Assembly: GCF_022662495.1 (NCBI RefSeq)
Contig: NZ_JAKPBU010000001.1
Coordinates: 1,922,001-1,986,000 of the forward strand
From: Lysobacter sp. M2-1
GTDB lineage: Bacteria > Pseudomonadota > Gammaproteobacteria > Xanthomonadales > Xanthomonadaceae
DNA length: 64,000 bases
Reading direction: 5' to 3'
Part shown: piece by piece, positions 29,767 through 47,043 of the stretch
How the letters are laid out: each line of letters begins with the position of its first letter
Numbering within the stretch: position 1 is the stretch's first letter
Made by a program: the position numbers and the translations under genes
Notes under the pieces: model-generated
Databases searched by the model: none
What the model saw: the letters and a program-made list of their open reading frames with translations, nothing else
Told to the model about the DNA's origin: nothing

Positions 29767-30927
29767 ATGAAGTTCGTGTTTTTCGCGAATACCGACTGGT
29801 ATCTGTACAACTTCAGGCTGTCGACCGCGCTGCAGCTCAAATCGCGCGGCGACGATGTGGTGATGCTGTCGCCCCCGGGCGAATTTGGAGCGCGCTTCGC
29901 CGCACATGGCATCCGCTGGATCACGCTGCCGATGGATCGCGCCAGCCTGAATCCCGTCCGCGAGGCATTCACGCTCGGCGCACTTGTGCGCGTGCTCAGG
30001 GCCGAACGTCCGGACCTGCTGCACAACTTCACGGTCAAGTGCGCCATCTATGGCGCGCTCGCCGCCAGGGTCGCCGGCGTGCCGGCCGTGGTCAACGCGG
30101 TTGCGGGCATGGGTTACGTGTTCACCAGCGACCGGTTCAAGGCGCGGGCGCTGCGTCCGATCGTGAGAACGTTGATGCGCGGAACGCTCGGCAGTGGGCA
30201 CACGCGGCTAATCCTGCAGAACCCCGACGATGCCGAAGCATTCATGTCGTCGCGGCTGGTTCCGTCGCAGATGATCCGCGTGATCCGCAGCTCCGGCGTG
30301 GATACCCGCCGGTTCCGCCCGGCTGCGAATGCAGCCGATCGCCGCCCACTGCGCGTACTGCTCGCCGCGCGGCTCGTATGGGAGAAAGGCATCCGCGAGT
30401 TTGTCGACGCGGCAGCCCTGCTCAAGGCGCAGGGGCGACAGATCGAATTCCTGCTCGCCGGCATGCCGGATCCGGGCAACCCGCACTCGGTCGGACGCGA
30501 GGACGTGGAACGATGGCAGGAGCGGGGCCTGATCCGCTGGCTGGGTCACGTCGAGGATATGCCGGCGCTGCTGCCGACCGTCGACGTGATGGCATTGCCC
30601 AGCTATTACCGCGAAGGCGTTCCACGGAGCCTGATCGAGGCCGCCGCCTGTGGCCTCGCGCTCGTCACCACCGATCTTCCGGGCTGCCGTGAAGTCGTTA
30701 CCCGACACGGTGTCGACGGGCTGCACGCCGAGCCCCGCGACGCAGCGTCGTTGGCGGGATTGCTGACGCAACTGGACGATGATCGCGAGCTGCTACGCAG
30801 GCTCGGCGACAATGCGCGACAGAAGGCGCTGGCGCACTTCGATGAGCGCCTGGTCATCGGGAAGACCATCCAGGTCTATGCCGAGTTGCTGGGCGCGTCC
30901 TCCAGCGGGCGCGCGCTGGCGCAGTGA
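29767..30927 (+). CDS. GT4-family glycosyltransferase
   Basis: A 386-residue cytoplasmic GT-B enzyme that adds a sugar to the lipid-linked repeat unit. The N-terminal Rossmann domain starts MKFVFFANTDWYLYNFRLST and contains LLHNFTVKCAIYGALAARV. The C-terminal donor-binding half has VLLAARLVWEKGIREFVDA and the EX7E-like region YYREGVPRSLIEAAACGLAL. The sequence resembles UDP-sugar transferases of O-antigen and capsule loci. Donor and linkage are unknown. ATG 29767 removes 24 unconserved residues of the longer frame. Confidence 0.9.
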   Translation: MKFVFFANTDWYLYNFRLSTALQLKSRGDDVVMLSPPGEFGARFAAHGIRWITLPMDRASLNPVREAFTLGALVRVLRAERPDLLHNFTVKCAIYGALAARVAGVPAVVNAVAGMGYVFTSDRFKARALRPIVRTLMRGTLGSGHTRLILQNPDDAEAFMSSRLVPSQMIRVIRSSGVDTRRFRPAANAADRRPLRVLLAARLVWEKGIREFVDAAALLKAQGRQIEFLLAGMPDPGNPHSVGREDVERWQERGLIRWLGHVEDMPALLPTVDVMALPSYYREGVPRSLIEAAACGLALVTTDLPGCREVVTRHGVDGLHAEPRDAASLAGLLTQLDDDRELLRRLGDNARQKALAHFDERLVIGKTIQVYAELLGASSSGRALAQ

Positions 30928-31158
30928 CGCCCGCCGGGAGTGCGCTGTGCGTCGCGGGAAGGACGCCTGCGAGACCGTGAACCTGTGCAGGCGCGGAACG
31001 AACGCAGCCCGGCGCGAGAATCGTCATCCATGCAGCACCCGCCTTCCGCTCGTTCGGTGGCGGCAGAACGAACACTCCTGCGTGGACGCTCTGCCGCCAT
31101 CCCGCCTGCGCAGCGCGCCGTGGAACAGCGATCGCGTTATCGACGTTGCGAGAGGGTT

Positions 31159-31986
31159 CTAGTTCCGCAAGCTCGGCGGCAGATAGCCAAATTTCTCGAC
31201 GATGAGCCTGTCCCGGTCGCCCACCAGCTTTTCGGTTTCAGCATCGTAGTAGTAGCGGGGGCCGTGCTTCTTCGAAGAGGTATTGGTTTTGGGTCGGGAC
31301 TTCATCCCGGCAGCGACCGCCGGCGGGACCTCGAACTTGGTGAACTCCAGGGCCCCGAGCAGGTCGGACTCCAGATTCTCATTCCTGATGAAGTAGTCGA
31401 TGAAACAATTGTTTTTTTCGTACTCCATCAACTGCTCGGGGGTCGAAACGGCGCGCAGTCTGCCGAGTTCGCCTTTCTTGCTGGAAAAAATCTTCATGTA
31501 GCGGTACGTCAGCAATCCTGCGAAGCGGCTCAATCCACTGCGCCAGTAGCCCTCGCCGACGTCGGGCCAGTATGTTTCGTCGTGCAGCATGTGCAGCCAA
31601 TGCCTGAACGCTCCGGCGTCGTTGACGTCGCGGAACGTGCGCTTCCATTCTTCGGAATGCCTGTTGGGACGGCATTCCAGGTATTCGATCAATGTCGAGT
31701 AAGGATGCAGTTTCCAGCCGCGGTCCCGGATGCGGACGCCCTTCGTGGTCACGTTGCTGTAGAAATCGCCCCTGCCATCGCAGCCGTAGGCCCAGAGCGA
31801 AACGTGCCAGTTCCACGGATCCCGGACTGATCCGAGGAAGGATCTTCCGTTCGTGAACAGGCTCGGATCGGCCTGGATATGTCTTTCGACGAATTTCCCG
31901 CCCACGATTTCCTTGAGCAGATTGCGGATGTGCGTGCATCCGGTTTTCTGCAGTTCCATGAAGACGATCTTGTCGGAAACGAACAT
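31159..31986 (-). CDS. Sulfotransferase family protein
   Basis: A 275-residue predicted PAPS-dependent sulfotransferase. The 5'-phosphosulfate loop is at the N-terminus (IVFMELQKTGCTHIRNLL, Lys in QKTG) and the 3'-phosphate element is LGSVRDPWNWHVSLWAY. The C-terminal half is basic and ends in Arg/Lys-rich sequence. It would sulfate a hydroxyl of the polysaccharide or a lipid intermediate; the acceptor is inferred only from the gene context. It is the last gene of a three-gene minus-strand block and convergent with the GT4 gene. The 231 bp between them show no clear terminator. Confidence 0.8.
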   Translation of the reverse strand: MFVSDKIVFMELQKTGCTHIRNLLKEIVGGKFVERHIQADPSLFTNGRSFLGSVRDPWNWHVSLWAYGCDGRGDFYSNVTTKGVRIRDRGWKLHPYSTLIEYLECRPNRHSEEWKRTFRDVNDAGAFRHWLHMLHDETYWPDVGEGYWRSGLSRFAGLLTYRYMKIFSSKKGELGRLRAVSTPEQLMEYEKNNCFIDYFIRNENLESDLLGALEFTKFEVPPAVAAGMKSRPKTNTSSKKHGPRYYYDAETEKLVGDRDRLIVEKFGYLPPSLRN

Positions 31987-32043
31987 AGCAACTCCGTCTT
32001 TTTTCAGCTTTGGTCTGTGGGTCGTAAGCGCATGGCGGTCGAC

Positions 32044-33450
32044 TCAGGCGTCGCGAGCGCGCATGGGCATGAATCCTGCGATGCGCTTCGACAGCAACGT
32101 CACCGCATCCGTCAGCACGGCGCGACGCAGGGAGATAAAGGTCCAGATGCCAAGATGCCTGCGGGCTGCGGCCAGGCCGAGCACGTTGCCAGTAAGCGAG
32201 CCGACGCAGGAGCCCAGGGCCACGCCGACGACGCCGGCGACGTAGCCGCCGATGGTGCAGGCCAAAATCTGCACGGCTCCCGCCCACATGGTGACGTGCA
32301 GCGTCTGGCGACGCAGCCCGGTCATCGGCAGCACCACCTGCCAGGATCCGGTCACGATATTCGCGATCTGGCCGACGGACAGGATCACCAGGATTGGATA
32401 CGCGGCTTCGTAGTGGGCGCCGAAGAGCGTGCCGAGCACCGGGCGCCCGATCAGCACGATCAACAGGAGTATGACGATACACGGCAGGCTGGCCAGGCCG
32501 CCGACGGCCTGGACGATGCGCTCCATGCGCTTGTTTTCCCCGCGTGCGTACAGTTCGGCCACGACCGGGGGCAGAAGCATGTTGACGATGGTCAGTGGCG
32601 CCGTCATCAGTAGGACGAAGCGATCCGCGATGGCGAACAGCGCGACGTTCTCGGAGCTGTCGAAGCCGGCCGCGAACCAGCCGTTGACCTGCAAGCGCAG
32701 CACGCCGAGCAGGCTCGCCAGCCAGAGCGGCCAACCTTCATGCAGCACCCTGCCCGTTGTCCAGTTTCCGGAGGAGGGGGCGGCCGGCAGCGGTTGGACG
32801 GCCGTGCGCAGGCGCCGCTGCAACGTCCATGCCGCCACAATCACCACCAGCAACGAGGAGCACACTGTCGTTGCAAAGGCTGCGGCCAGCGTCATCGCAC
32901 CCGACGCCCACAGGATCAGCAGGGTGCCGCAGGTGATCAGGCTGATCAGGATGCCGTTGTTGCGAAAGCCACCGAACAGGGTCGCTCCGCGGATATCGTT
33001 CAGTCCGCGAAAGGTTTCGGCCAGCTGGCGCTGCACGGTCGAGACGAACAGCAACAGGACCATCAGACCACTGAGTCCGATCGCCGCAGGCATCTTCACC
33101 ACGTAGGTGAAGAACCATGGGGTCAGAAAGTAGAAGATCAGGCACAGGAGGGCGGTTGCCGCGATCACGGTCACCAGGCAGCGCTTGACCACCGCGCGCA
33201 CGCCAGTCCAATCACCCACGCCTTTGTACGCAGCCACAAACCGGACCACGATCCGGTCCATGCCGAGTGTGGCGACCGTGGCAAGGATGATCATGGTGCT
33301 CATGACGACGAAATAGACGCCGTAATCGCCAGGCGTCAGGCTCCGTGCCAGCACCAGGTTCAGCACGAAGGCGGCAACGATGGCGACGAGCCTGCCGCCC
33401 GCTGCCCACATCCCGCCGGAGATCATGTTCTGCTTGAGTTCGTGGCTCAT
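32044..33450 (-). CDS. Wzx-type polysaccharide flippase
   Basis: A 468-residue polytopic membrane protein of the oligosaccharidyl-lipid flippase family, with about 12-14 hydrophobic spans. The start MSHELKQNMISGGMWAAGGRLVAI leads into LVLARSLTPGDYGVYFVVMS, a pattern common in this family. It would move the undecaprenyl-linked repeat unit to the periplasm for polymerisation. It lies between the sulfotransferase (57 bp downstream) and the kinase-methyltransferase gene (315 bp upstream). Confidence 0.9.
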   Translation of the reverse strand: MSHELKQNMISGGMWAAGGRLVAIVAAFVLNLVLARSLTPGDYGVYFVVMSTMIILATVATLGMDRIVVRFVAAYKGVGDWTGVRAVVKRCLVTVIAATALLCLIFYFLTPWFFTYVVKMPAAIGLSGLMVLLLFVSTVQRQLAETFRGLNDIRGATLFGGFRNNGILISLITCGTLLILWASGAMTLAAAFATTVCSSLLVVIVAAWTLQRRLRTAVQPLPAAPSSGNWTTGRVLHEGWPLWLASLLGVLRLQVNGWFAAGFDSSENVALFAIADRFVLLMTAPLTIVNMLLPPVVAELYARGENKRMERIVQAVGGLASLPCIVILLLIVLIGRPVLGTLFGAHYEAAYPILVILSVGQIANIVTGSWQVVLPMTGLRRQTLHVTMWAGAVQILACTIGGYVAGVVGVALGSCVGSLTGNVLGLAAARRHLGIWTFISLRRAVLTDAVTLLSKRIAGFMPMRARDA

Positions 33451-33765
33451 GCGGCGCTCATGGGATCCGGTTTCGCATGAAACCTCTGACGTTCGCGCTT
33501 GTCATCTTCAATCTTGTCCGCGCGCAGTCTGGAAGTTCGCGACGACTGCCCGGGTCCGGGAGATGATCGTTTCGGCGTTGCATAACGGGCCAGCAGCATA
33601 CATAGGTGACCTGATACAAAGCTATGACGTGGACGGGGAAACATCTTCTTTGTGGCGGCCTTCTTGGTTTCTGTATGGTCGACGTTCAGGGGCGCATCGC
33701 GAAAGCCCGCGCGTTTCATGGCGATGCGGCTCGGAATCGGCGTGAAGCCTGCGCATTGGCGGCCT
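33451..33765. other. 315-bp intergenic region upstream of the flippase gene
   Basis: There is no credible gene here. Near the flippase start is a small dyad, GGTTTC GCAT GAAACC, at 33469-33484. Less GC-rich sequence around 33590-33650 (for example GATACAAAGCTATGACG) could hold a minus-strand promoter. No terminator for the kinase-methyltransferase gene is evident. Confidence 0.4.
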
Positions 33766-35022
33766 TCATTTGGAAAACACGATGACAGAGCGTCCTTCGT
33801 GCGAGGTTCCGAGCACGCTGTGGTTCGGGAAGCCGGCACGGGAGAAGCGTTCGATCTCGACTGCGTTCTGATCATGACCTTCGAACACGACGAGGCGGAA
33901 CCTTGCCAGGAAGTCCATAAGACGTTGCTTGTCCCGGACCATGTCGAGCACGCCAAGCGCAAAGATCACGTCAAAGTCCGCTGGCTCGAAGCGCTCTTCC
34001 CACGGATACGCCGCATCCAGGTCCACCTTCTCGAAGGAGGCGCCTACCGAGAACGCTTCGGCGATTTGCTTGGCGGAGGCAAGAATCAATGGGTTGGAAT
34101 CGATGCCCACGGCCGAGAGCGCCTGTCCTTCCTTCAGTAGCCAGATGCACAGCAGGCCCATATGGCAGCCCAGGTCGAGCGCGCGCAAGCCACTGAAATC
34201 CGCTGCATTGCGCAGCAAGTCCCAGCGCTGCTCCCATGGCTGCTTCCCGGGGAGCTTCATGTCTCCGACGATAAGGGAGTAATCGGCGACAGGTTCGCCT
34301 CGTGCTTTCATGGCTGCGCGCTGCGCGATCTTCCAGGCGCTGCACAGCTTCCTCTGCATCAGGGGAGCATCGGATCGAAGGGTCGGCATGCTGGCGGCCC
34401 TGCGGCGGGGCAGGAACTGGAATGCAAGGCGAGCGGCGACCAACAGCCAGCTCCCGTAGATCAATGGATCACTCGTTCCTATGCCAAGGACGTTCCGGAG
34501 CAGTGCGTCGGTACGGCTGGTGAGGTGGGCTTGATCGAAATCGACCAGATAAGGCCGGTTGGCGCGACCCACCACGATGTTTCTGGGAACGATATCGTTG
34601 TGTGCGACTCCACGCCACGAGATTCCGATGCTGGTGTGCAGCAGGCGCACGATGATTCGCCACGCCTGAGCGATCGTCAGGTCGCCCAGGACATCCTGCA
34701 ACGCGGTGCCTTCGAGCCGGTCCATCGACAGTACGCAAGCGTTCGTGTTTTCACGAAAGTCGTGCACCGTGGGCACGCCGGGAATGCCATTGCAGTGCCC
34801 GAGCAGGGCGGCTTCGAATGCACCCGGGGAAAGTTTGGGGTAAAGATCGGGGAGATCCGTCTTTAGCGTGATCTTGTGCGCGGAATCTCCCTGGAGGTAG
34901 GTCCTGATCGTCGGATCGTAAACGCTCTTGTGAAAGCTCCCTGATGGGTCTATCGAGAATGAGGACAGCACGAGTTCCCAGGCCGCCTCGGACCGCCAAG
35001 GCGCGGATTGGGCGTCAGTCAT
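33766..35022 (-). CDS. Kinase-methyltransferase fusion (WbdD-like activities, reversed order)
   Basis: A 418-residue soluble protein with two domains. Residues about 25-200 resemble a small protein-kinase-like fold: a candidate ATP-binding Lys in KITLKTD, catalytic loop AHNDIVPRN (Asp143, Asn148) and metal site VDFD (Asp161). Residues about 255-418 are a class I methyltransferase with motif I LDLGCHMG (283-289), an acidic residue in VGIDSNPL, and DVIFALGVLDMV. E. coli WbdD ends O-antigen chains by phosphorylating and methylating the end sugar, but has methyltransferase first and kinase second. Here the order is opposite and no coiled coil follows. A chain-ending role is an inference from domains and context. 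Confidence 0.75.
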   Translation of the reverse strand: MTDAQSAPWRSEAAWELVLSSFSIDPSGSFHKSVYDPTIRTYLQGDSAHKITLKTDLPDLYPKLSPGAFEAALLGHCNGIPGVPTVHDFRENTNACVLSMDRLEGTALQDVLGDLTIAQAWRIIVRLLHTSIGISWRGVAHNDIVPRNIVVGRANRPYLVDFDQAHLTSRTDALLRNVLGIGTSDPLIYGSWLLVAARLAFQFLPRRRAASMPTLRSDAPLMQRKLCSAWKIAQRAAMKARGEPVADYSLIVGDMKLPGKQPWEQRWDLLRNAADFSGLRALDLGCHMGLLCIWLLKEGQALSAVGIDSNPLILASAKQIAEAFSVGASFEKVDLDAAYPWEERFEPADFDVIFALGVLDMVRDKQRLMDFLARFRLVVFEGHDQNAVEIERFSRAGFPNHSVLGTSHEGRSVIVFSK

Positions 35023-35449
35023 CCTGCCACTCGCACAATGTCATGGCTGCCAAGGGCGTGTTCTCAGCGAAGGTGCTCGCGCCGCAACGGCTCTCGTTGC
35101 CTGCGCTGGGACGTCGGTGGTGGCGCGCTGTTCCGGTGCGGCCGTTTGCGGTTTCGAATTGTCGATGTCGCCGCGCAACGTATCGTGAAGGGTTCGCTGC
35201 ACGGGAGCGTCGAATCGTGCTAAGGCGGCAACGGGCGAAATCTCCGTGGCGTACACCACCACGTCCTGGATGGAGCTTCAGGCTCGGTCCGTAACGTTCA
35301 AATTCCGTAAGGCAACGGCGGATCTTCGACGCCCGCCGTTCGCGCTGCTTCTTCAGTCGAGCGTCAACAACCGATTCAGGTTTCGCATGCGAAGCTTAAT
35401 AACTTCCTGCGCGTCGCTGCGGGACCCGAATCGGCATGAACGATATGAG
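35023..35449. other. 427-bp divergent intergenic region
   Basis: This region separates the minus-strand block from the plus-strand glycosyltransferase genes and must hold at least two promoters. Short open frames across it have no coding character. A promoter with an embedded palindrome is visible at 35375-35402. The repeated string CCGTAA occurs near 35288 and 35306. Confidence 0.4.
35375..35402 (+). promoter_or_regulatory. Candidate promoter with palindromic operator
   Basis: A -35-like TTCAGG (35375-35380), a 16-bp spacer and TAATAA (35397-35402) precede the GT2 gene by about 48 bp. The spacer contains the perfect 12-base palindrome TTCGCATGCGAA (35382-35393), an arrangement expected for a repressor site. 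The string GGTTTCGCATG is shared with the dyad at 33469. Confidence 0.45.
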
Positions 35450-36346
35450 ATGAAGGCCATAGCTGAAGCAGGTTCGGATGATCCTGGCCGAAGTGGTGCC
35501 GATGTCCGGCCCGCGCCGGTAAGCGTGGTCGTGCCCTGCTACCGCTGCGCGGCGACCATCGGTGATGCGATCGCTTCGATCGTCGACCAGACGGTGAGGC
35601 CCGCCGAAGTCCTGCTGGTCGACGACTGCAGCGGTGACGAGACGCTCGAAACACTGCATCGAATCGCCGCCGCCTACCAGCCTGGTTGGATCAGGGTGAT
35701 CGCAATGCCAGCGAATGGGGGCCCGTCGCGCGCGCGCAATACGGGCTGGCGGCAGGCGCAGCAACCCTACATTGCCTTTCTCGACGCCGACGACACCTGG
35801 GCGCCTCGCAAGTTGGAGCTGCAAATGGCGGTTCTGGAGGCGGACCCGACCATCGCGCTGATCGCGCATCCGATGGTCGTGCGCATGCGCGGCACCGAGC
35901 TGCCCGGATTGCGGACTCCCGTCCTTACGGAGATCGTGAGCCGACGCAGGCTGCTGCTCCACAACCCATTTCCGACCGCCTCGGTGGTGCTGCGCCGTGA
36001 TTTGCCGCTGCGCTTCGACGAGAGCTTCCGGCGTTCCGAGGACTTCCTGCTGTGGGCGCAGATCGTGCTTTCCGGCTATCGCTGCGCGCGCCTCAATCAG
36101 GTGCTGGCGATCTGGAACAGACGCGCCGACGACGCCACCGGTCTGAGCGACGATTTCGCCGCGATGCGCCGCACCAACCACGAGGCGCGCCGCAAACTGC
36201 TGCGGCAGGGCCTGCTCAGTCGGCCGGAATTCGAGTTCACCCGCGTGGTCAGCGTGCTGCGCTGGGCGCGCCGCGACCTGGTGCTGCGTTTGCAACGGCA
36301 AGGGCCCTATCGGCCGGGCCGGGCTGAATCCATCTCCGCAAGGTGA
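35450..36346 (+). CDS. GT2-family glycosyltransferase
   Basis: A 298-residue GT-A fold enzyme. The nucleotide-sugar region is PVSVVVPCYRCAATIGDAIA with VLLVDDCSGDET, and the metal-binding DxD is in YIAFLDADDTW. The acceptor-side FRRSEDFLLWAQ element provides the usual catalytic ED. There is no membrane span, so it is probably peripheral to the inner membrane. The sequence is roughly 70-75% identical by eye to the C-terminal domain of the next gene, pointing to a tandem duplication. ATG 35450 lies just before the domain; upstream in-frame starts read as non-coding. Confidence 0.88.
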   Translation: MKAIAEAGSDDPGRSGADVRPAPVSVVVPCYRCAATIGDAIASIVDQTVRPAEVLLVDDCSGDETLETLHRIAAAYQPGWIRVIAMPANGGPSRARNTGWRQAQQPYIAFLDADDTWAPRKLELQMAVLEADPTIALIAHPMVVRMRGTELPGLRTPVLTEIVSRRRLLLHNPFPTASVVLRRDLPLRFDESFRRSEDFLLWAQIVLSGYRCARLNQVLAIWNRRADDATGLSDDFAAMRRTNHEARRKLLRQGLLSRPEFEFTRVVSVLRWARRDLVLRLQRQGPYRPGRAESISAR

Positions 36347-36490: not shown

Positions 36491-38656
36491 GTGAAAAGTT
36501 TCTATCTATCGGGACAGCGTACTTTCGGTAACCGCGGATGCGAGGCGATCGTTCGCAGTACGGTTGGGTTGCTCCGGGCGCAGTTCGGAGACGTCAGGGT
36601 GCTGGTGCCCTCGCGTCATATCGAGCGCGATCGCGCGCAGTGGCCGGAGGCGGCGGAGGCGGGGGTCACGTTCGTCAGGGCGTATCTGCCGCGCTACGCG
36701 CACTACTGGGTCAATCTCCAGCGCCTGCCGCTGCCGTTTCTGAAGCGCATGGGCTGGCCTTTTCCGATGCCGGGCTGGCTGGAGGAGCAGATCGCCAGCG
36801 TGGACGCGGTACTGGCGATAGGCGGGGACAATTACTCGCTCGATTACCGGATTCCCTCGCCGGTCATCGGTCTGGACAAGTTCGCGATGGACCTGGGCAA
36901 ACCGGTAATCCTGTGGGGCGCGTCGGTGGGGCCGTTCGAGAAGGAACCGCATTTCGTGGGCGCCGTCGCCAGGCATCTCTCGCGCATGGAGTTCATCGCG
37001 GTCAGGGAGTCGGTCAGCTACGCCTATCTCACGCAGACGCTCGGCCTGGGCAACGTGGTGCAGATGGCGGATCCTGCATTCACGCTCGGCAAGGAGGCGA
37101 TCGACCTGGCCGGATTCTGGACAACCGGGGAGAACGGAATCCTGGGCGTGAACGTCAGCGCGCTGATCGAACGTTACAAGCGGCAGGAACAGGATATTCG
37201 CACGGAGGTCGCGGAGTTCATTCGCCATGCGGTGCGCGAACATGGCCTGGGCGTGCTGCTGGTTCCCCATGTCAACCCGCTCAAAGGACAGCATGCGGGA
37301 GGTGACGCGACCTACATGGCGGGGCTGCAGGAGCAGCTGCGCGATCTCGGTACGTCGGTGACCATGATGCCGCACCAGTTGAACGCGGAGCAGATCAAGT
37401 ATGTGATCAGCCATCTGCGATTCTTCATGGGCGCACGCACGCACGCGACCATCGCGGCGCTCTCCAGCGGGGTGCCGACGGTGTCGATCGCCTACAGCGT
37501 GAAGGCCCGTGGCATCAACCGGGACCTCTTCGGCAACGAGGAAGCGGTGCTGCAGACTCCGGATCTGTCCTTGCAGTCGTTGCGTGGGCGACTGGAATGG
37601 CTGCTTCGGGAGGAGCAGGCGCTCAAGGCGACCCTGGCTGCGCGAATCCCACAGCTTCAGCATCAGGGCAGACAGGCGGCGGCGCGGATTTCGGACGTGC
37701 TTGCCCGGGACATTGGCAATGATGCCGGATCGGTGCCCGTCCGCTCATCGAACGGGACGATGATCGAGCAGGCGGCGGCGGTGGGCGAGGCGAGGGTGGT
37801 CGTTGACGGTCAGGATGCGGCCGATGCCGCGCGGGCGCCGGTGAGCGTGGTCATTCCCTGCTTCCGCTGCCGAAGCACGATTGCCGACGCGATCGCTTCG
37901 GTGGCGGCGCAAACCCTGCGGCCCGCCGAGGTGTTGCTGGTGGACGACTGCAGCGGCGACGATACGTTGGAAGCGCTGCACCAGGTCGCGTCGGGATACG
38001 AACCCGGCTGGGTCAAGGTGATCGCGCTGGCCGAAAACGGTGGTCCGTCGCGCGCGCGCAATGCGGGATGGGAGCGTGCAGGCCAGCCCTACATCGCGTT
38101 CCTCGATGCCGACGACACCTGGCATCCGCGCAAGCTGGAACTGCAGGTGACGGCGCTGCGTGCCGATCCCGCCATCGCGCTGATCGCGCATCGGATGACG
38201 GTACGCGATCGGGACTCGGCGGTGCCCGGGGTACGTGCGCCGGTGCGGGTCGGGATCGTAGGCCGACGCAGGTTGCTGCTGAACAATCCATTCCCGACCG
38301 CCTCGGTGGTGCTGCGCCGCGACCTGCCGTTCCGCTTCGACGAGAACTTCCGGCGCGTGGAAGACTTTCTGCTGTGGGCGCAGATCGCGTTCTCCGGTTA
38401 CCGCTGCGCGAAGATCAACCAGGTGCTGGCTTCCTGGCACAAGCCGAACTACGGGGCTGGCGGCCTCACCGAGGATCTCGCCGCGATGCACGCGGCCGGC
38501 CGCAAGGTGCGCCTGGAGCTGGTGCGCCAGGGTCTGCTGAGTCCGCCAGAGCATGCGTTCGCCCGGCTGATGAGCGTGGTGCGCAGGACGCGCCGGAACC
38601 TGCTGATGCGGGTGCGTCGTCAGGCCGATCGGGCACGTCTGCGCCAGGTCGCGTAG
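36491..38656 (+). CDS. Polysaccharide pyruvyltransferase-GT2 glycosyltransferase fusion
   Basis: A 721-residue protein with two parts. Residues 1 to about 400 resemble polysaccharide pyruvyltransferases (CsaB/WcaK/AmsJ type): GQRTFGNRGCEAIVRSTVGLL, VLAIGGDNYSLDYR, and MGARTHATIAALSSGVPTVS near 318. Residues about 449-721 are a complete GT2 domain (PVSVVIPCFRC, VLLVDDCSGDDT, FLDADDTW, FRRVEDFLLWAQ). An in-frame ATG at 37760 (codon 424) aligns with the start of the free-standing GT2 gene upstream. The fusion may therefore have arisen by loss of a stop, and a separate GT2 product is possible. It may add a pyruvate ketal and a sugar to the same unit. Confidence 0.85.
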   Translation: MKSFYLSGQRTFGNRGCEAIVRSTVGLLRAQFGDVRVLVPSRHIERDRAQWPEAAEAGVTFVRAYLPRYAHYWVNLQRLPLPFLKRMGWPFPMPGWLEEQIASVDAVLAIGGDNYSLDYRIPSPVIGLDKFAMDLGKPVILWGASVGPFEKEPHFVGAVARHLSRMEFIAVRESVSYAYLTQTLGLGNVVQMADPAFTLGKEAIDLAGFWTTGENGILGVNVSALIERYKRQEQDIRTEVAEFIRHAVREHGLGVLLVPHVNPLKGQHAGGDATYMAGLQEQLRDLGTSVTMMPHQLNAEQIKYVISHLRFFMGARTHATIAALSSGVPTVSIAYSVKARGINRDLFGNEEAVLQTPDLSLQSLRGRLEWLLREEQALKATLAARIPQLQHQGRQAAARISDVLARDIGNDAGSVPVRSSNGTMIEQAAAVGEARVVVDGQDAADAARAPVSVVIPCFRCRSTIADAIASVAAQTLRPAEVLLVDDCSGDDTLEALHQVASGYEPGWVKVIALAENGGPSRARNAGWERAGQPYIAFLDADDTWHPRKLELQVTALRADPAIALIAHRMTVRDRDSAVPGVRAPVRVGIVGRRRLLLNNPFPTASVVLRRDLPFRFDENFRRVEDFLLWAQIAFSGYRCAKINQVLASWHKPNYGAGGLTEDLAAMHAAGRKVRLELVRQGLLSPPEHAFARLMSVVRRTRRNLLMRVRRQADRARLRQVA

Positions 38657-38658
38657 CC

Positions 38659-39711
38659 ATGGCCACCGCCCCGGCCACCGCCCTGCCTGAGCGCCACAAC
38701 ACCCCGGCGACGCATGCGGGGCTGGTCCTGAGCCTGATCCTGCTGATCGCAGCGGCGGGTTTCGGCTGCTGGGTGGTAGGCACGCGCGGCCTGGATATCG
38801 GCACCGACACCAGCGTCTATGCCGGCTTTTTCGAAAGCCTGAACCGTCCTTTCATTACCCGGCTGGAGCCCGGTTTCGTCTTCATCAGCTATGTCCTGAA
38901 CCGGCTCGGCCTTGGTGTCACCGGATACCAGACCGCGCTGTTCGCGCTGCTGCTGCTGATTGCCGCGGTGGCGGCGCGCAGGTATTCGCGCTACCTGGGG
39001 GCCACGCACGGGTACCTCACCTTCCTCAGCGCATCGCTGATGCTGCTGTATCTGTCGCCGATGTTCGTCAACGGGTCGATCAACGCCGTGCGGCAGGGGC
39101 TGGCCTCGTTGCTGGTGTTCGCCGCGCTGCTTTCGTTCCAGCAGCGCAAATGGTGGCTGTTCGTGCTGTACGGCGCCCTGGCCAGCAGTCTGCATCTGTC
39201 GTCGCTGCTGTACCTGGCATTCGCGCCCTTGCTGCTGGTGCGGTCGGGCGTGTTGCATTACGCGGCTGCGCTGGCATTCCTGATGTACTGCACGGGGCTG
39301 ACGTTGATCCTGGTGCGCACATTGATTCCGCCGCTCTACAACCTGGTGATGACCTACACGGTCAATCCGGAATACCGGGCGGGCGTGCGCATCGACTTCG
39401 CCGTATTCTCCATCTTCTGGTATGCGCTGCCGCTGCTGCTGGCGCCGCTGGTGCGGTCCCCCTACCGGGAACGGATCAAGGAGAGCACCGCGGTCTATCT
39501 GGTGATGTTGCTGCCGTTCTTCGCGATCGGTTGGGGTTACTACTCCAACCGCTATCTGCTGCCGGCGTGGCTTGCAGTATCGCTGATGATCGCGGCGATC
39601 CTGTGCCACAGCCGGATCGCGCTGCTGCGCAATCCGCTGCTGATCCGGATGGGACTCATCGCCGCTTGTCCCGTCTTTTACTACTACGTGACCAACGTGA
39701 TCGTGATCTGA
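38659..39711 (+). CDS. EpsG/Wzy-like polysaccharide polymerase
   Basis: A 350-residue membrane protein with about 9-10 hydrophobic spans. The early loop DIGTDTSVYAGFFESL and the following LEPGFVFISYVLNRLGLG match the pattern of EpsG-family polymerases. A motif with INAVRQGLASLLVFAALLSF follows. It would join repeat units in the periplasm after flipping. It begins 2 bp after the fusion gene's stop, suggesting translational coupling. The long upstream frame overlaps the previous gene and was rejected. Confidence 0.85.
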   Translation: MATAPATALPERHNTPATHAGLVLSLILLIAAAGFGCWVVGTRGLDIGTDTSVYAGFFESLNRPFITRLEPGFVFISYVLNRLGLGVTGYQTALFALLLLIAAVAARRYSRYLGATHGYLTFLSASLMLLYLSPMFVNGSINAVRQGLASLLVFAALLSFQQRKWWLFVLYGALASSLHLSSLLYLAFAPLLLVRSGVLHYAAALAFLMYCTGLTLILVRTLIPPLYNLVMTYTVNPEYRAGVRIDFAVFSIFWYALPLLLAPLVRSPYRERIKESTAVYLVMLLPFFAIGWGYYSNRYLLPAWLAVSLMIAAILCHSRIALLRNPLLIRMGLIAACPVFYYYVTNVIVI

Positions 39712-40793: not shown

Positions 40794-41990
40794 GTGCAAC
40801 CGTCGACCGCATTCAGTTGCGCCGCAACCCCCCCGCGTGCGCGCTTCCTCATCGGCACGGAACGCCCCTTACTCCCATTCAGCAAGTCCGGCCGCAATCG
40901 GGCGCTGACCCGGCTGCGCCTGCTCAGGGGCATCGTCGTGGCGGTCGCCCTGAGTGTGTGCCTGGCAGCACAGGCGCAGTCAGGCAATCTCGGCAACCTG
41001 GTCGAGAGCGGTCACGTGAAGTTCGTGAAGATCACGCCGGAACTGGTCTCGCAGATCAGTGCGAAGCAGCAACCCGCCGCACCGCAGGAACTGCTGCAGT
41101 ATCGTCCCGAGTCCTACCGGATCAGCCCGGGCGACACGATCCTGGTCACCGTCTGGGATCATCCGGAACTGATGGAGGTCAATCAGGGCGGGGGGCAGAA
41201 CCCGCAGGCGAACGGCCGCCTCGTACATCCGGATGGCACCTTCTATTACCCCTTCGTCGGCACCCTCAAGGTCGCGGGCATGCAGCTCGAAGAGCTGCGT
41301 AACGTCATCACCAGCAAACTGTCCACCTATCTGCAGAGTCCGCAGGTGGACGTCAACATGGCTGGATACGGTAGCCGCGTGACGTTGCAGGGCGCCTTCC
41401 AGAATACCAGCCCGCAGAACATCACCACCGTTCCGTTGACCCTGTCGCAGGCGATCGGTGCTGCGGTCATCAATACCGACGAGGCCGACCTGTCCGGATT
41501 GATCCTCACGCGCGACGGCAAGAACCATCACGTCGACCTCGACGCGCTGAGCCGCAACAGAGGGTCGACGCCCGAAATCTACCTGAAGCCAGGCGACCGC
41601 CTGTACCTGCCGTTCAACGACCGCCAGGAGGTCTACGTCCTGGGCGAAGTGCTGCAGCCGCAGGCGCTCACATTCAAGACGTCGGACATGACGCTCACCC
41701 AGGCCCTGGGTCGCGCCGGAGGCCTGAATCCGACTACGGCGAAGGAGGAAGCGGTCTACGTCATCCGCGGCATGGACGTGAACGACATGGAGAAGCAACC
41801 GTCGACGGTGTACCAGCTTGATGCCAGTTCGCCGGCCGGGTTCGCGTTGGCCGACCGGTTCCCGGTGCGGGCGGGAGACGTCGTGTTCGTCGGCGAGGCA
41901 GGCGTAACGCGCTGGAACCGCTTCCTGAGCCAGCTGCTGCCGCTGTCCGGGATCATCCGCAACGCTGCCACGGTGCCTGGTGGCAACTGA
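40794..41990 (+). CDS. Wza/GumB-like polysaccharide export protein
   Basis: A predicted outer-membrane export channel component of 398 residues. After a basic N-terminus comes a hydrophobic segment GIVVAVALSVCLAAQAQSG. A lipobox-like LSVC is present, but signal peptidase I cleavage after AQA is equally possible. The poly-export domain reads YRISPGDTILVTVWDHPELM and RLVHPDGTFYYPFVGTLKVAG. SLBB-like domains follow (VTLQGAF and EVYVLGEVLQPQALTF). The GTG at 40794 gives about 45 residues before the hydrophobic core, so the true start may be further in. It probably works with the Wzc-like kinase. Confidence 0.85.
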   Translation: MQPSTAFSCAATPPRARFLIGTERPLLPFSKSGRNRALTRLRLLRGIVVAVALSVCLAAQAQSGNLGNLVESGHVKFVKITPELVSQISAKQQPAAPQELLQYRPESYRISPGDTILVTVWDHPELMEVNQGGGQNPQANGRLVHPDGTFYYPFVGTLKVAGMQLEELRNVITSKLSTYLQSPQVDVNMAGYGSRVTLQGAFQNTSPQNITTVPLTLSQAIGAAVINTDEADLSGLILTRDGKNHHVDLDALSRNRGSTPEIYLKPGDRLYLPFNDRQEVYVLGEVLQPQALTFKTSDMTLTQALGRAGGLNPTTAKEEAVYVIRGMDVNDMEKQPSTVYQLDASSPAGFALADRFPVRAGDVVFVGEAGVTRWNRFLSQLLPLSGIIRNAATVPGGN

Positions 41991-42003
41991 GCCCGAGCAG
42001 ACC

Positions 42004-42549
42004 ATGGCAGACGCGTTCTTGCAGCTGCATCGAGCGACCCCGCCGGACCCGGCGGTATTCGCGCCGCGCATGGTTTCGCCATTGCCGAGGGTTCATGTGC
42101 TGATCGTTTGCGCCGGAAACGTGCGCCGTAGTCCGATGGCAGCGGCGTTGTGGCGCCACAGGTTCCGCGAGCAGCCGATGCTGGTGCAGTCCGCTGGGCT
42201 GAACGCGCTGAACGGGCTCGGCATCGATCCGCGGGCCGAAGCGGCGCTCGCCGCGCGTGGCCTGAGCGGACGGCCGCACGTCGCCAGGCAAGTGACCGGC
42301 GCGCTCGTGGAAGCGGCGGATATGGTGCTGGTGATGGATTGCGCACAGGCCATTGCGGTGCAGGCGCTGTCGCCATGTGCGTCCGGACGCACGTTCACGC
42401 TCGGAAAGTGGTCGGGCGGTGCGGAGATTCCGGATCCGCATCCATACACCGCGGATGCGTATGCACGTGTCTGCAGTTTGATCGAACGCGCAGTCGACGA
42501 TTGGCATGAACAGCTGAATGGCCGTGTCGCCGCGGCCACGATGATGTAG
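42004..42549 (+). CDS. Low-molecular-weight protein tyrosine phosphatase (Wzb-like)
   Basis: A 181-residue phosphatase expected to dephosphorylate the Wzc-like kinase. The P-loop is VLIVCAGNVRRSPMAA, fitting CX5RS, but the second Cys common in this family (CxxNxCRS) is Arg here. The general-acid Asp lies in IPDPHPYT near the C-terminus. About 35 N-terminal residues precede the P-loop, more than in E. coli Wzb. ATG 42004 was chosen over GTG 41980, which would overlap the export gene; neither has a clear ribosome site. Confidence 0.85.
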   Translation: MADAFLQLHRATPPDPAVFAPRMVSPLPRVHVLIVCAGNVRRSPMAAALWRHRFREQPMLVQSAGLNALNGLGIDPRAEAALAARGLSGRPHVARQVTGALVEAADMVLVMDCAQAIAVQALSPCASGRTFTLGKWSGGAEIPDPHPYTADAYARVCSLIERAVDDWHEQLNGRVAAATMM

Positions 42550-42553
42550 TGCC

Positions 42554-42698
42554 GCCCGCGTCTGCGGGCAGGGACGCCGGCAGCCAATCCATGTACGTGA
42601 GGATTGGCCACAGAGCAAGAAGCGTTTCCCGAGAAAGCAAGTTCGAAACCCACAAGGATGGAGCCAGGTGAGCGTAGTTCACCTACCTGTAAGGATGG
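42554..42698 (+). promoter_or_regulatory. Structured leader between wzb-like and wecA-like genes
   Basis: Three hairpins occur in a 232-bp gap. They are GCCCGC/GCGGGC around GTCT (42554-42569, 4 bp after the phosphatase stop), GCCAATCC-N10-GGATTGGC (42583-42608), and AGGTGA/TCACCT around a 7-base loop (42666-42684). The last is bracketed by direct repeats AAGGATGG at 42654 and 42691. No U-tract is seen. The set may attenuate transcription or bind a regulator. Confidence 0.4.
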
Positions 42699-42781
42699 CG
42701 TGCGTACCTTGTTTTGGTGACGCGCGTTACAGGGGCGCTCCGTCCGCAAGCAATTCCTCGAAGGCCCGCCCCGACACGCCC

Positions 42782-44797
42782 ATGCAAAATGAGAAGTTTG
42801 TTGCCGCGAGCGCCATTACAGTAGCGGTTACCCTGGCATCCATATTCTGGCTGCGCCCCTTGGCGCGACGCATCGGCCTGGTCGATACGCCGAGCGAGCG
42901 CAAACGCCATCGCGGGAGGGTGCCGCTGATCGGTGGTCTGTGCTTCTTCATCGGCACCATCGCCGGCCTGATCTACTTCCATCATTACGACCCTTTCGTG
43001 GTCGCCCTGCTCGTGAGCGGCGCGATCGTCGTTCTTCTCGGCCTGCTGGACGACCTGTACGACCTCAGCCCGCGCACGCGGCTGCTGATCCAGGCCGGTA
43101 CGGTGGTGTTGGTCATGGCCGCTACCGGCGTCTACGTCGACAGTGCCGGCAATCTGTTCGGTGGTGGCGAGATCCGGCTGTACTGGCTCGGCATTCCATT
43201 CACCGTCGTCGCCGTGGTCGGTCTGGTCAACGCATTCAACATGCTCGACGGGATCGACGGTCTTGCCGGCAGCCTGAGCATGATCAGCATCGCCGCGATC
43301 CTCGCCTTCAGCGGTGTGCAATGGCCGGTGCCGAGCGTGCTGCTGATGCTCCAGCTGCTGGCAGTGGCGCTGGTGCCGTACCTGCTGGTGAATCTGGGCT
43401 GGCCGGATGGGCGCAGGATCTTCATGGGCGATGCCGGCAGCATGTTGCTCGGCTTCGTCCTGGCATGGAGCCTGGTTTCCCTGAGCCAGCGCGGCGGCGG
43501 GCTGGCACCGGTGGACGTGTTGTGGTGCGTGGCGTTGCCGGTGATGGACACCATCGCGGTGATGTACCAGCGCGTGCGCAGCGGAAGGTCGCCGTTCCGC
43601 GCGGACCGTCGACACCTGCATCACATGCTGCTGGATGCGGGGTTGTCGCCACGCAAGACGCTGGCGCTGGTCGTCGCCAGCGGTGGGCTGATGGCTGCGC
43701 TGGGCTATGCGATGCGCGATGTGACCGAAGGCCTGAGCCTGCTCGCATTCCTGAGCGTGCTGGTGGCGTATGTGCTGCGCGGTCCGCGCGCCGTCGCTTG
43801 GCTGCGGATGGCGGTGAACGGCCACCACACGGCTTTGCCGGACCGCCTCTCCGGGGCGATCTCCGGCTTGCTGGGCAGTTCCTGGGTGTACTTGTTGTTC
43901 GGAAAGCAGGCCAGTGCGCTTTCCATCGCACGAAGCGGGTCGCGGCACACGTCGCCACCCACGATGGCCGTCACGAGCGACGACGGCCGGCTGCAGGTCC
44001 CTCTTACGGTGCAGGCACCGGATTCCGATTTCGACCAGCGCGACGAGCCTGTCGCGCAATCCGGCTCCGCACACGACGGGCGGGTCAGGGCGCTGTGCGT
44101 GCTCGACGGAACGCCCGGCGACCTGGAAATGGTGCCGATCATGCAGCAGCTGTCGGCGGACGCGCGCTTCGACGCCCGGATCTGCGTCGCCGGACTCCAG
44201 GACCAGGAACTGCATGCGGACCGCCGCTCCGCCGACCGTAGCCGCGGCGAACCCGAGCCCGACCCCGGCCTGCCTCAGGATCCCGCGGCGGTGGTCTCGC
44301 GGACGATGGATGAGATGGGGCGCATGGTCAGGGCGTTCGACCCGGACGTGGTCCTGATCCATGGCGAGTCGCCGACCGTGCTCGCCACCGCGCTGGTGGC
44401 GTACTACCAGGAGATCCCGGTGGCGCGCATGGGAACCGAAGCGTCGCCCGGGGCGGACGCAGTGCAGGCGCATGCCGAGACCAACGACAGGATCATCAAC
44501 ACCCTGGCCTCGCTGCATTTCACCTCGAGCGAGCGCACCAGCGACGAACTGATCGCCGCGGGAATTCCGCAGGACCGGATTACGGTCACCGATCACGCAG
44601 GCATCGGGTCGCGGCGCGCGCGCGCGCGTTCCGCCGACGCCTGCGTGCGCATCGCCGAGGCGCTGGCGCACCTGCCGCACGGGGCACCGGCGACGCAATC
44701 CGAGGTGCAGGAAGAGGTACCTCCGCCCCGCTTGGCGGCGAACGAATATGCCCGGCAAGGCGCGCAGGCGCCGGCAACGGCAGGAGAGAGCAGATGA
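42782..44797 (+). CDS. WecA-like initiating transferase fused to a degenerate WecB-like half-domain
   Basis: A 671-residue protein. Residues 1 to about 375 form a polytopic undecaprenyl-phosphate glycosyl-1-phosphate transferase of the WecA/MraY class: LLDDLYD (89-95), NAFNMLDGIDGLAGS (about 151-165), FMGDAGSM (about 214-221) and HLHH (about 278-281). After a linker, residues about 434-608 resemble the N-terminal half of UDP-GlcNAc 2-epimerase: VRALCVLDGTPGDLEMVPIM, DPDVVLIHGESPTVLATALV, LASLHFTSSERTSDELIAAGI. Typical catalytic residues are changed (GTRPEAIK became GTPGDLE, HGD became HGE) and the second half is missing, so this part is probably not catalytic. It overlaps the kinase gene by 4 bp. 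Confidence 0.85.
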   Translation: MQNEKFVAASAITVAVTLASIFWLRPLARRIGLVDTPSERKRHRGRVPLIGGLCFFIGTIAGLIYFHHYDPFVVALLVSGAIVVLLGLLDDLYDLSPRTRLLIQAGTVVLVMAATGVYVDSAGNLFGGGEIRLYWLGIPFTVVAVVGLVNAFNMLDGIDGLAGSLSMISIAAILAFSGVQWPVPSVLLMLQLLAVALVPYLLVNLGWPDGRRIFMGDAGSMLLGFVLAWSLVSLSQRGGGLAPVDVLWCVALPVMDTIAVMYQRVRSGRSPFRADRRHLHHMLLDAGLSPRKTLALVVASGGLMAALGYAMRDVTEGLSLLAFLSVLVAYVLRGPRAVAWLRMAVNGHHTALPDRLSGAISGLLGSSWVYLLFGKQASALSIARSGSRHTSPPTMAVTSDDGRLQVPLTVQAPDSDFDQRDEPVAQSGSAHDGRVRALCVLDGTPGDLEMVPIMQQLSADARFDARICVAGLQDQELHADRRSADRSRGEPEPDPGLPQDPAAVVSRTMDEMGRMVRAFDPDVVLIHGESPTVLATALVAYYQEIPVARMGTEASPGADAVQAHAETNDRIINTLASLHFTSSERTSDELIAAGIPQDRITVTDHAGIGSRRARARSADACVRIAEALAHLPHGAPATQSEVQEEVPPPRLAANEYARQGAQAPATAGESR

Positions 44798-47043
44798 AAA
44801 AACTCACCGTGGACGGCAGACACACGGACATCATCGCGCGTGACGCGGGGCATCTGCGCGATGACGATATCGACCTGGGCGCGCTCGTGGGGGTGGCGAA
44901 CGACCACAAGTGGCTGATCCTGATCGGCACCGCGATGTTCTTCCTCGCCGGTGTGATCTACGTCATGGCAGCCAAGCCGACCTATCAGGCCAGCGCCCTG
45001 GTGCAGGTGGAGCGCGGCAGCGCCGGCGCTCCCGGACAGTCGCCGCAGACGTCCCTGACCCTGGTCGAACCCGCACGCTCGCAGGCGGTCACCGAGATTC
45101 CGCTACTGACCTCGCGCACCTTGTTCAGCGATGCGGTGAACAAGCTGGACCTGGACGTCCGCATCGAGCCGCAGCGGCTGCCGATCCTGGGGGATTTCCT
45201 CGCGCACCGCTACGCGCCGAAGCGACCCGGAGACGTCGCACCGCCGCTGTTCGGCCTGTCGCGCTATGGCTGGGGAGGCGAGGAACTGCACATCAAGCAG
45301 CTCGATGTGCCTGACAGCCTGTTGAACCAGCCGTTGGTGCTGGTCGCCGAGCCATCGGGCCGTTATCGCCTGCTCGACCAGGACGGGGAGCTGCTGGTGC
45401 GCGGGCGCACCGGCACCGTCGCGCGGGCCGGCACCGTGGTCGCCGACGTGGAGACGCTGCGCGCCAATCCCGGCACCCGTTTCAATGTGACCCGGCTGAA
45501 CCCGCTGGCGGCGATCAGCGCGCTGGCCGACAACATCGAGGCCACCGAGCAGGGGCGGGATTCGGGCATCATCTCCGTCACCTACCGCGACACCGATCCG
45601 GCGGTCGCGGCGCAGGTGCTGGACCATATCACCAGCGCCTACGTGCGCAGCAACGTGCAGCGCAACTCCGCGGAAGCCGAGCGCAGCCTGCAGTTCGTCA
45701 ACGAGCAGCTGCCCAAGGTGCGCAAGGAGCTTTCGCGCGCCCAGGCGGCGCTGAACAAGTTCCAGAGCGAGGTCGGTACCGTCGACATCGAGCTGTCGAC
45801 ACGTGCGCTGCTCGACCAGACCGTCGCCATCAACGCCAGCCTGCAGACGCTGCAGACGCAGCAGCCGGAGATCGCGCGCCGCTTCACGCCCGCGCACCCG
45901 GCGTCCAAGGCGCTGCGCCAGCAGATCGGCCAGCTCCAGAGCGAGAAGGGCGCACTGCAGGCGCGCATGAACAAGCTGCCGGACATCCAGCAGGGCCTGT
46001 TCCGCCTGACCCGCGACGTCGAGGTTACCAACCGCACCTACACGACGCTGCTCGACCGGGCGCAGCAACTCGACATCGCCCGCGCCAGCGCGATCGGCAG
46101 CGTGCGCGTGATCGATCGCCCGTCGGCCGACCTTGCCATGCTGGTGTGGCCGCTGAAGGTTCCGATCGTGCTCGGTGCTACTGCGCTTGGCGCGATGCTG
46201 ATGATCGCGTTCGTCTACCTGCGGCAGATGTTCAACCGCGGCGTCACCGATCCGGCCGACGTCGAGCGGCTTGGCCTGCCGGTCTACGCGGCCATTCTCG
46301 ACAGCCCGCAGGAGCGGACGCTGGCGCTGCGCCAGCGGCGCGGGCGTTCCCGTCACTTGCGTCCGCAGCTGTTGGCGCTGAACTCGCCAACCGATGGGGC
46401 GATGGAGGCGCTGCGCTTCCTGCGCACCAGCCTGCATTTCGCCCGGATCGAGCCGGAGAACAAGCTGCTGATGATCGCCGGACCGAGCTCGGGCGTCGGC
46501 AAGACCTTCGTCTGCTCCAATCTGGCGGTCGCAGTCGCGCAGGCGGGTCAGCGGGTAGTGCTGGTCGACGCCGACATGCGTCGCGGAACCCTGCATCAAG
46601 TGCTCGGCGTCCGCGCCACGGAAGGCCTGTCCGAACTGATCTCACGGCAGATCACCCTGGACGCAGCGGTGCGCACCGTCGCAGGCGCCGAGAATCTCTC
46701 GTTCATCTCGCGCGGCGCGCCGCCGCCGAATCCGTCGGAACTGCTGATGCATCCCAACTTCGGCAAGTTGCTGGACACGCTCGCCGCCAACTACGACCTG
46801 GTGATCATCGACACCCCGCCGGTGCTGGCGGTGACCGACGCCGCGGTGATCGGCCAGCACGTCGGCACCACCCTGCTGGTGGTGCGCTCGGGCCTGAGCC
46901 AGGCGCGCGAGATCGCACTGGCCAAGCAGCGACTCGAGCAGAGCGGGGTCGAGATCAAGGGCGCGATCGTCAACGGCTTGAACAAACGGAGCAGCTACCA
47001 CTATGCCTACGGCGACGATTACCTTGGCGCGCAGCCCGGCTGA
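44794..47043 (+). CDS. Wzc-like chain-length regulator and BY-kinase
   Basis: A 749-residue inner-membrane tyrosine autokinase. Two membrane spans (about 38-60 and 446-475) flank a periplasmic Wzz-type domain with coiled coil. The cytoplasmic kinase has Walker A GPSSGVGKTF (563-572), Walker A' VVLVDADMRRG and Walker B LVIIDTPPV. The C-terminus carries the Tyr cluster YHYAYGDDY for autophosphorylation. It would control polymer length and export with the Wza-like protein and be reset by the phosphatase. The ATG overlaps the previous stop. Confidence 0.93.
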   Translation: MKKLTVDGRHTDIIARDAGHLRDDDIDLGALVGVANDHKWLILIGTAMFFLAGVIYVMAAKPTYQASALVQVERGSAGAPGQSPQTSLTLVEPARSQAVTEIPLLTSRTLFSDAVNKLDLDVRIEPQRLPILGDFLAHRYAPKRPGDVAPPLFGLSRYGWGGEELHIKQLDVPDSLLNQPLVLVAEPSGRYRLLDQDGELLVRGRTGTVARAGTVVADVETLRANPGTRFNVTRLNPLAAISALADNIEATEQGRDSGIISVTYRDTDPAVAAQVLDHITSAYVRSNVQRNSAEAERSLQFVNEQLPKVRKELSRAQAALNKFQSEVGTVDIELSTRALLDQTVAINASLQTLQTQQPEIARRFTPAHPASKALRQQIGQLQSEKGALQARMNKLPDIQQGLFRLTRDVEVTNRTYTTLLDRAQQLDIARASAIGSVRVIDRPSADLAMLVWPLKVPIVLGATALGAMLMIAFVYLRQMFNRGVTDPADVERLGLPVYAAILDSPQERTLALRQRRGRSRHLRPQLLALNSPTDGAMEALRFLRTSLHFARIEPENKLLMIAGPSSGVGKTFVCSNLAVAVAQAGQRVVLVDADMRRGTLHQVLGVRATEGLSELISRQITLDAAVRTVAGAENLSFISRGAPPPNPSELLMHPNFGKLLDTLAANYDLVIIDTPPVLAVTDAAVIGQHVGTTLLVVRSGLSQAREIALAKQRLEQSGVEIKGAIVNGLNKRSSYHYAYGDDYLGAQPG

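Follow-up and report, generated by a model that had tools for sequence, protein, structure and literature searches.

The window, that is, the whole stretch of 64,000 nucleotides that was analysed, contains a gene whose product, as judged from its profile matches and motifs, is a fusion of an N-terminal eukaryotic-type kinase with a C-terminal methyltransferase of class I. The cluster around this gene is read, from the encoded proteins, as one for a Wzx/Wzy-dependent exopolysaccharide. Both domains are recognisable in the sequence, with their core catalytic motifs apparently kept, and the reading that we prefer, to which we give a probability of just under one half, is that the fusion protein acts in the cytoplasm as an enzyme that decorates this exopolysaccharide.

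Gene and domain architecture

The fusion gene is a single uninterrupted ORF running from ATG to TGA (Table 1). Its GC content by codon position (0.63/0.45/0.74) is as expected for one gene, and the third-position GC stays between 0.70 and 0.75 in each of four segments, an evenness along the ORF that is again the pattern of one gene. The methyltransferase part matches Pfam Methyltransf_31 over residues 277-370 with an E-value of 4e-9, above the curated cut-off, and carries the motif I (DLGCHMG, 283-289) and the acidic post-I motif (VGID, 305-308) of class I methyltransferases. The kinase part matches Pfam Pkinase over residues 70-172 with an E-value of 5.6e-4, which is under the curated cut-off. 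The earlier note had described a kinase-methyltransferase fusion in the order opposite to that of WbdD and with no coiled-coil ruler. The domain order is borne out by the Pfam domain positions and by the alignment with WbdD. The missing ruler agrees with the structure models, where no coiled coil is seen between the domains and the longest helix has about 22 residues, in a part modelled with low confidence, and with the C-terminus, given that the methyltransferase is the last domain and the protein ends there, without a C-terminal polymerase-recruitment region. A hydrophobic stretch at residues ~186-204 (mean hydropathy 1.35) may correspond either to a helix inside the kinase fold or to a site that touches the membrane.

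Table 1. Positions in the window of the fusion gene, its domains and the neighbouring genes of the cluster.
Feature	Position	Strand	Basis and remarks
Kinase-methyltransferase fusion gene (protein P0001)	33766-35022	minus	418 aa; ORF, translation and domains
Kinase domain	34408-34947	minus	~residues 26-205; N-terminal, eukaryotic-type
Class I SAM-dependent methyltransferase domain	33769-34230	minus	~residues 265-418; C-terminal; Pfam, alignment A6
Wzx-type flippase	32044-33450	minus	Pfam Polysacc_synt 1.2e-14; 315 bases downstream of the fusion gene
Sulfotransferase-like protein	31159-31986	minus	third minus-strand gene, 57 bases beyond wzx
GT2 glycosyltransferase, divergent from the fusion gene	35246-36346 (start approximate)	plus	Pfam
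Polysaccharide pyruvyl transferase fused to GT2	36491-38656	plus	Pfam
EpsG-family protein	38569-39711 (start approximate)	plus	Pfam EpsG 4e-27
Wza-type outer-membrane export protein	40794-41990	plus	Pfam Poly_export, SLBB_2
Wzb-type low-molecular-weight tyrosine phosphatase	41980-42549	plus	Pfam LMWPc
WecA-type initiating sugar-phosphate transferase with epimerase-2-like domain	42668-44797	plus	Pfam Glycos_transf_4, Epimerase_2
Wzc-type chain-length regulator/tyrosine autokinase	44794-47043	plus	Pfam Wzz, WZC_N, GNVR, AAA_31

Genomic context

Pfam scans of 20 ORFs of the window gave, in this order, a TonB-like gene, tolB, an OmpA-family protein, a TolA-binding protein and a radical SAM gene, followed by a beta-helix protein, a GT4 glycosyltransferase, the minus-strand genes, the GT2, the pyruvyl transferase-GT2, EpsG and a DUF218 protein, and then by Wza, the Wzb-like phosphatase, the WecA-like transferase with its epimerase-like domain, Wzc, a protein with a double asparagine-synthase match and two ORFs with no match. 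The EpsG-family protein is the probable Wzy-like polymerase, a role assigned from its family. The fusion gene, wzx and the sulfotransferase-like gene share the minus strand, with the other scanned genes of the cluster on the opposite one. The GC contents of the fusion gene (60.4%) and of the sulfotransferase-like gene (56.9%) are the lowest of 15 genes, the other 13 being at 63.1-68.1%, and that of wzx, at 64.7%, is not low. This is only a hint of acquisition, because 1-kb windows elsewhere in the cluster (29000, 40500) also dip to 60-61%. A scan of 30900-35700 gave no sigma-70-like promoter, against 0.8 expected by chance, and with a gap of 315 bases between them the fusion gene and wzx may or may not be co-transcribed.

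The initiating transferase of this cluster is fused to a UDP-GlcNAc 2-epimerase-like domain, and wzc is adjoined by a gene (47059-50037, plus strand) for a 992-aa protein with two asparagine-synthase matches. Two similar GT2 domains are also present, one standing alone at 35246-36346 and the other behind the pyruvyl transferase at ~37840-38656 on the plus strand; the GT2 genes matched in genomes G002 and G055 are the same for the two, which suggests a duplication.

The third minus-strand gene encodes a protein with KTGCT and RDPWNW...SLW motifs, which we take to be those of a sulfotransferase. It matched nothing in Pfam or NCBIfam at E<=0.001, nor any PDB sequence at E<=1, and looks like a member of an unmodelled sulfotransferase family. 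Homologues were found in four genomes besides its own among 250 searched, and 18 window genes served as queries against five stretches taken from those four genomes. In the G055 stretch, the homologue is accompanied by CysD-like (PAPS_reduct domain), CysN/APS-kinase and Sulfotransfer_3 genes, and by homologues of the beta-helix, GT2, GT4 (26%) and WecA-like genes of the window. In G002, GT2 and beta-helix homologues lie close to it, and in G573 and G593 (4.3 kb only) no further window gene was matched at E 1e-4. The sulfate-activation genes in G055 make it probable that a relative sulfates this class of polymer, and the stretch as a whole suggests that such polymers are decorated. The fusion protein had no match in any of the five stretches, and the fusion gene therefore looks like a local addition to the cluster.

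Kinase domain and structure models

The assignment of the kinase domain was assessed with an HMM of 32 protein-kinase fragments from which the fusion protein was excluded. The fusion protein scored 48.1 bits (E 2.4e-14), WbdD 35.7 bits, and the presumed NoeA of S. meliloti plasmid pSymA (see below) -1.5 bits; among 500 shuffled versions of the fusion protein the highest score was 4.5 bits. In the alignment with 19 Ser/Thr kinase fragments (A3), the residues H141, D143, P146, N148, D161 and F162 are invariant. The HxD aspartate, the asparagine and the DFG aspartate that mark the eukaryotic-type kinase fold are therefore found as D143, N148 and D161, in motifs that are variant, with HND replacing HRD (H141-N-D143) and DFD replacing DFG (D161-F-D). 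PSGSFHKSVY is a candidate glycine-rich loop. The probable catalytic lysine, equivalent to that of VAIK, is K54 (ITLK), which pairs with the IALK of CDC7 in phmmer, although in MAFFT the column of this lysine falls at position 50 or 56 instead. The probable alpha-C glutamate is E70, the sole Glu in residues 58-79, which is invariant in A3, with the column at 67 in A5 and one position off in phmmer. For the activation segment (SPEQ/APE and the alpha-F Asp) the alignments are weak; A3 pairs it with AAMKARG and QRWDL (D268) and A5 places it elsewhere, and the QRWDL that A3 proposes falls inside the methyltransferase match, in a region where the models are also weak.

The sequence and fold matches of the kinase are mostly protein kinases. 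The matches of the whole protein to PDB sequences include CDC7 (2.2e-5) and the WbdD kinase (1.4e-4). With the kinase part alone, seven sequences were matched at E<=0.01, CDC7 among them, and WbdD was absent at this threshold, which means that a special kinship to WbdD is not demonstrated. The structure models are of low to moderate confidence. The model from alignment A4 (18 kinases and 2 methyltransferases) has a mean pLDDT of 60, with 72-92 per ten-residue block over residues 71-160 and below 50 over residues 1-64, and that from alignment A5 (32 kinases, residues 1-266 of the fusion protein) has a mean pLDDT of 65. The lean of the fold matches to protein kinases arises at least partly because the alignments behind these models were made up of protein kinases, and the fact that WbdD is not among the best 50 fold matches listed is uninformative either way. 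A further alignment (A2; 70 fragments prepared, with L015, L037, L038, L055, L064 and L079 left out) was rejected, as the kinases fell onto the methyltransferase part.

The PADLOC model of the anti-phage kinase PD-T4-6 matched with an E-value of 1.1e-12, over residues 81-182 only (profile 69-174 of 292). This identity was rejected given that the match is limited to the shared kinase core and is not full length. A role in defence was likewise set aside, since the PADLOC matches are to the kinase core, plus one (mad2) to the methyltransferase, and the PHROGs matches are weak and single-domain. Elsewhere in the window, a second kinase-like match (~10376-10678, plus strand) is 28% identical to residues 73-170 of the fusion protein and lies in a 1249-aa open frame, probably that of a large Ser/Thr kinase.

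The kinase thus stands nearest to Ser/Thr protein kinases in profile, in sequence and, with the bias of the alignments, in fold, which would fit a kinase that phosphorylates a protein, for example a component of polysaccharide assembly, and a fusion that acts as a regulator. We consider this unlikely, given that a convincing SPEQ/APE and RSDLY activation segment is not seen, in alignments too weak there to decide, that the fused methyltransferase is of the small-molecule type, and that tyrosine-kinase control is already supplied by Wzc. It is more unlikely still that the kinase fold is degenerate or serves only in substrate binding, and that the protein is a plain sugar O-methyltransferase: the HND and DFD variants and the Pfam score below the cut-off would agree with it, as would the missing WbdD histidines described below, but H141, D143, N148 and D161 are all present.

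Comparison with WbdD and other kinase-methyltransferases

The fusion protein and WbdD (E. coli O9/O9a, Klebsiella O3) both join a eukaryotic-type kinase to a class I methyltransferase and are encoded in a polysaccharide locus. In single comparisons, the kinase core shares 29% identity with that of WbdD across 79 aa (E 1e-6), and for the methyltransferase the identity is 28% across 111 columns (E 0.002); D351, N356 and D369 of WbdD match D143, N148 and D161 of the fusion protein. WbdD is described as having its methyltransferase at residues 1-210 and its kinase at 211-459, followed by a coiled coil (PMC3482155), whereas in the fusion protein the kinase precedes the methyltransferase and both the coiled coil and the C-terminal recruitment region of WbdD are missing. 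The export context also differs, being Wzm/Wzt for WbdD and Wzx/Wzy for the fusion protein. In E. coli HS, the WbdD ORF (708 aa; L090 7967-10093) adjoins wzt and wzm; it is annotated there merely as 'class I SAM-dependent methyltransferase', with its kinase part unnamed.

The WbdD variants H132A, H133A and R203A are reported to lose methylation and keep phosphorylation (PMC3482155). In BLASTP, H132 and H133 align with D360 and M361 of the fusion protein, and these histidines are therefore replaced; R203 may correspond to R411, judging only by the register at the C-terminus, and MAFFT leaves the two unpaired. According to the same source, other methyltransferases carry two His or two Tyr at the positions of H132 and H133 (PMC3482155), so that these residues are not unique to phosphate methylation. 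Their replacement means that the methyl group may go to a target other than phosphate, or that the pocket differs.

The fusion protein therefore departs from a WbdD-type terminator in its domain order, in the coiled-coil and recruitment region, in the Wzm/Wzt context and at H132/H133, and this bears on the suggestion of the earlier note that it may be an independently evolved polysaccharide terminator. Such an enzyme would phosphorylate and methylate the non-reducing end, and polymerisation would stop. The two predicted activities are those of WbdD, and the identities given above and the polysaccharide context are consistent with it; the domain content, the domain order and the missing coiled coil on which the suggestion was built stand, but the terminator itself is not favoured and is, in our estimate, improbable. 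The cluster is of the Wzx/Wzy/Wzc kind with its own Wzc, and no Wzt_C match was found in the genome, with a model that matches only 2 of 14 controls and that a Wzt without Wzt_C would escape. Each step of Wzy polymerisation moves the growing chain, by its reducing end, onto the incoming unit. A cap at the non-reducing end would therefore mark the start of the chain and would not stop its growth. The terminal group made by WbdD is what recognition by the ABC transporter depends on (PMC3482155), and this does not favour a terminator at a Wzx/Wzy locus. The absence of a coiled coil from the models, the replaced histidines and the absence of WbdD from the kinase-only PDB search also count against it, and the domain order speaks less for an independent invention given that it apparently exists already in NoeA/Lani_1194.

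Indeed, NoeA/Lani_1194 is described as a kinase and a methyltransferase in one protein, with R38 of Lani_1194 given as the equivalent of the lysine, and a methyltransferase is said to be carried also by 94% of about two thousand homologues of the Lani_1194 kinase (PMC9758233). The operon given there for NoeA is nodL-noeA-noeB, not a Wzx/Wzy one (PMC9758233). On S. meliloti pSymA, where this stretch carries no annotation, the ORF at L032:14273-15709 is presumed from its motifs and position to be NoeA. Its presumed kinase motifs, DATAYN and FIDHLS, are atypical and are placed at 133 and 148, ahead of the methyltransferase motif at 311, which indicates that the kinase-first, methyltransferase-last order, shared with the fusion protein, does not appear to be new. 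In BLASTP, the fusion protein matches the presumed NoeA in the methyltransferase only (E 4e-4). The presumed NoeA kinase has no Pfam kinase match at E<=0.001, and its score on the kinase HMM corresponds to no detectable similarity, in a comparison with one presumed NoeA, so that a remote kinship may still exist. That the fusion protein modifies a small secreted or lipid molecule off the polysaccharide backbone, in the manner assumed for NoeA and nodulation factors, would agree with the shared domain order and is about as improbable as the terminator, given the difference between the kinases (-1.5 against 48.1 bits) and that no small-molecule pathway genes were recognised among the 20 window ORFs scanned.

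Other kinase-methyltransferases were compared by their descriptions alone. The N-terminal methyltransferase-kinase of Klebsiella O7 ORF6 is reported to phosphorylate and then methylate a glycan acceptor in vitro, and ORF6 is described as a terminator whose kinase differs from that of WbdD, with a kinase model nearest to AmiN at low similarity, a coiled coil and an ABC-transporter system (PMC11231755). It differs from the fusion protein in having the methyltransferase first, the coiled coil and the ABC transporter. The Lcin_0519 family is described as kinase-methyltransferases that occur in Xanthomonadales among other groups, some of them encoded in polysaccharide loci; 27% of its neighbourhoods are given as having homologues of the Wzt-like and glycosyltransferase neighbours, and 17% also of Wzm, and a coiled coil is common in the family, unlike in the fusion protein (PMC9758233). 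Xanthomonas WxcB is said to resemble the methyltransferase and kinase domains of WbdD (PMC4878081).

Search for relatives

The fusion protein was searched against 60 relatives (E<=1e-3), against 369 class, 398 order and 398 phylum genomes (each at 1e-7), and against 297 family genomes at 1e-8; the five genome sets overlap and include its own genome. No second full-length fusion was found in these five overlapping sets of 60 to 398 genomes each, the matches listed being single-domain; in the class, order, phylum and family searches at most 4 to 6 candidates per genome were scored, and very distant fusions may escape. The matches in plasmids (7 records) and phages (4 records) were to a single domain only, with no full-length fusion. 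A peptide scan of the genome contigs matched 24 stretches, none of them a relative. A scan of the contigs with a degenerate HNDxxPRN...DFD pattern, which has CACAACGA fixed at its start and therefore favours GC-rich genomes, gave three loci. In two of the three the frames stand alone, with 326 and 363 aa, and look APH-like by eye; in the third (L034), where the match is at the contig start, no frame of at least 100 aa contained the motif; the best BLASTP E-value to the fusion protein among the frames of these loci was 0.025. Two short-frame kinase matches (L030 and L031) are ordinary Ser/Thr kinases by eye. The fusion is therefore an orphan within the limits of these searches, and with no known relative a conserved linkage to glycan genes is unsupported. 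The component parts are ordinary, and their combination within a Wzx/Wzy cluster was not met in the titles and abstract openings of the papers listed by searches of an open PMC library.

Proposed function

As a decorating enzyme of the exopolysaccharide, the fusion protein would use ATP, in its kinase domain, to phosphorylate a hydroxyl on the lipid-linked repeat unit or on a precursor built in later, and its methyltransferase domain would use SAM to methylate that phosphate or an adjacent hydroxyl. The neighbouring Wzx would then flip the modified unit, the modification having taken place first on the cytoplasmic side. Here we infer that the kinase and the methyltransferase both work, and do so on a single acceptor, that this acceptor is a glycan and that it is modified before flipping. 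The reading is supported by the two recognisable domains with their core motifs and by the surrounding cluster, which encodes Wzx, an EpsG-like polymerase, Wza, Wzb, Wzc and glycosyltransferases. By analogy, the action of fused kinase-methyltransferases on glycans, as described for WbdD and Klebsiella O7 (PMC3482155, PMC11231755), would also argue for decoration, and the flippase and sulfotransferase-like genes on the strand of the fusion gene, the low GC and the sulfation context in G055 are consistent with it. The replacement of the WbdD histidines, the kinase score below the Pfam cut-off and the prevalence of protein kinases among the matches, which stems partly from the make-up of the structure alignments, count against it. 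So do the dips in GC elsewhere in the cluster, the 315-base gap to wzx and the orphan state of the fusion, in which no linkage to glycan genes is seen to be conserved.

A particular form of cytoplasmic modification, and the least probable of the readings considered here, is a starter cap, in which some of the lipid-linked repeat units would be phosphorylated and methylated, so that a capped unit could only start a chain. If true, it would set the number of chains, and thereby their length, and mark the outer end without a coiled-coil ruler, and the fusion protein would be a separately assembled kinase-methyltransferase modifier of glycans, the first in a Wzx/Wzy pathway.

If the acceptor of the decorating enzyme is indeed a glycan, the glycan chemistry of kinase-methyltransferases would extend from chains exported by ABC transporters to Wzx/Wzy exopolysaccharides, and the fusion would add to the evidence that the pairing of a kinase with a methyltransferase had more than one origin. 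An unusual phosphate or methyl phosphate, visible by NMR, would then also be expected on the exopolysaccharide; otherwise, the fusion would be a rare oddity.
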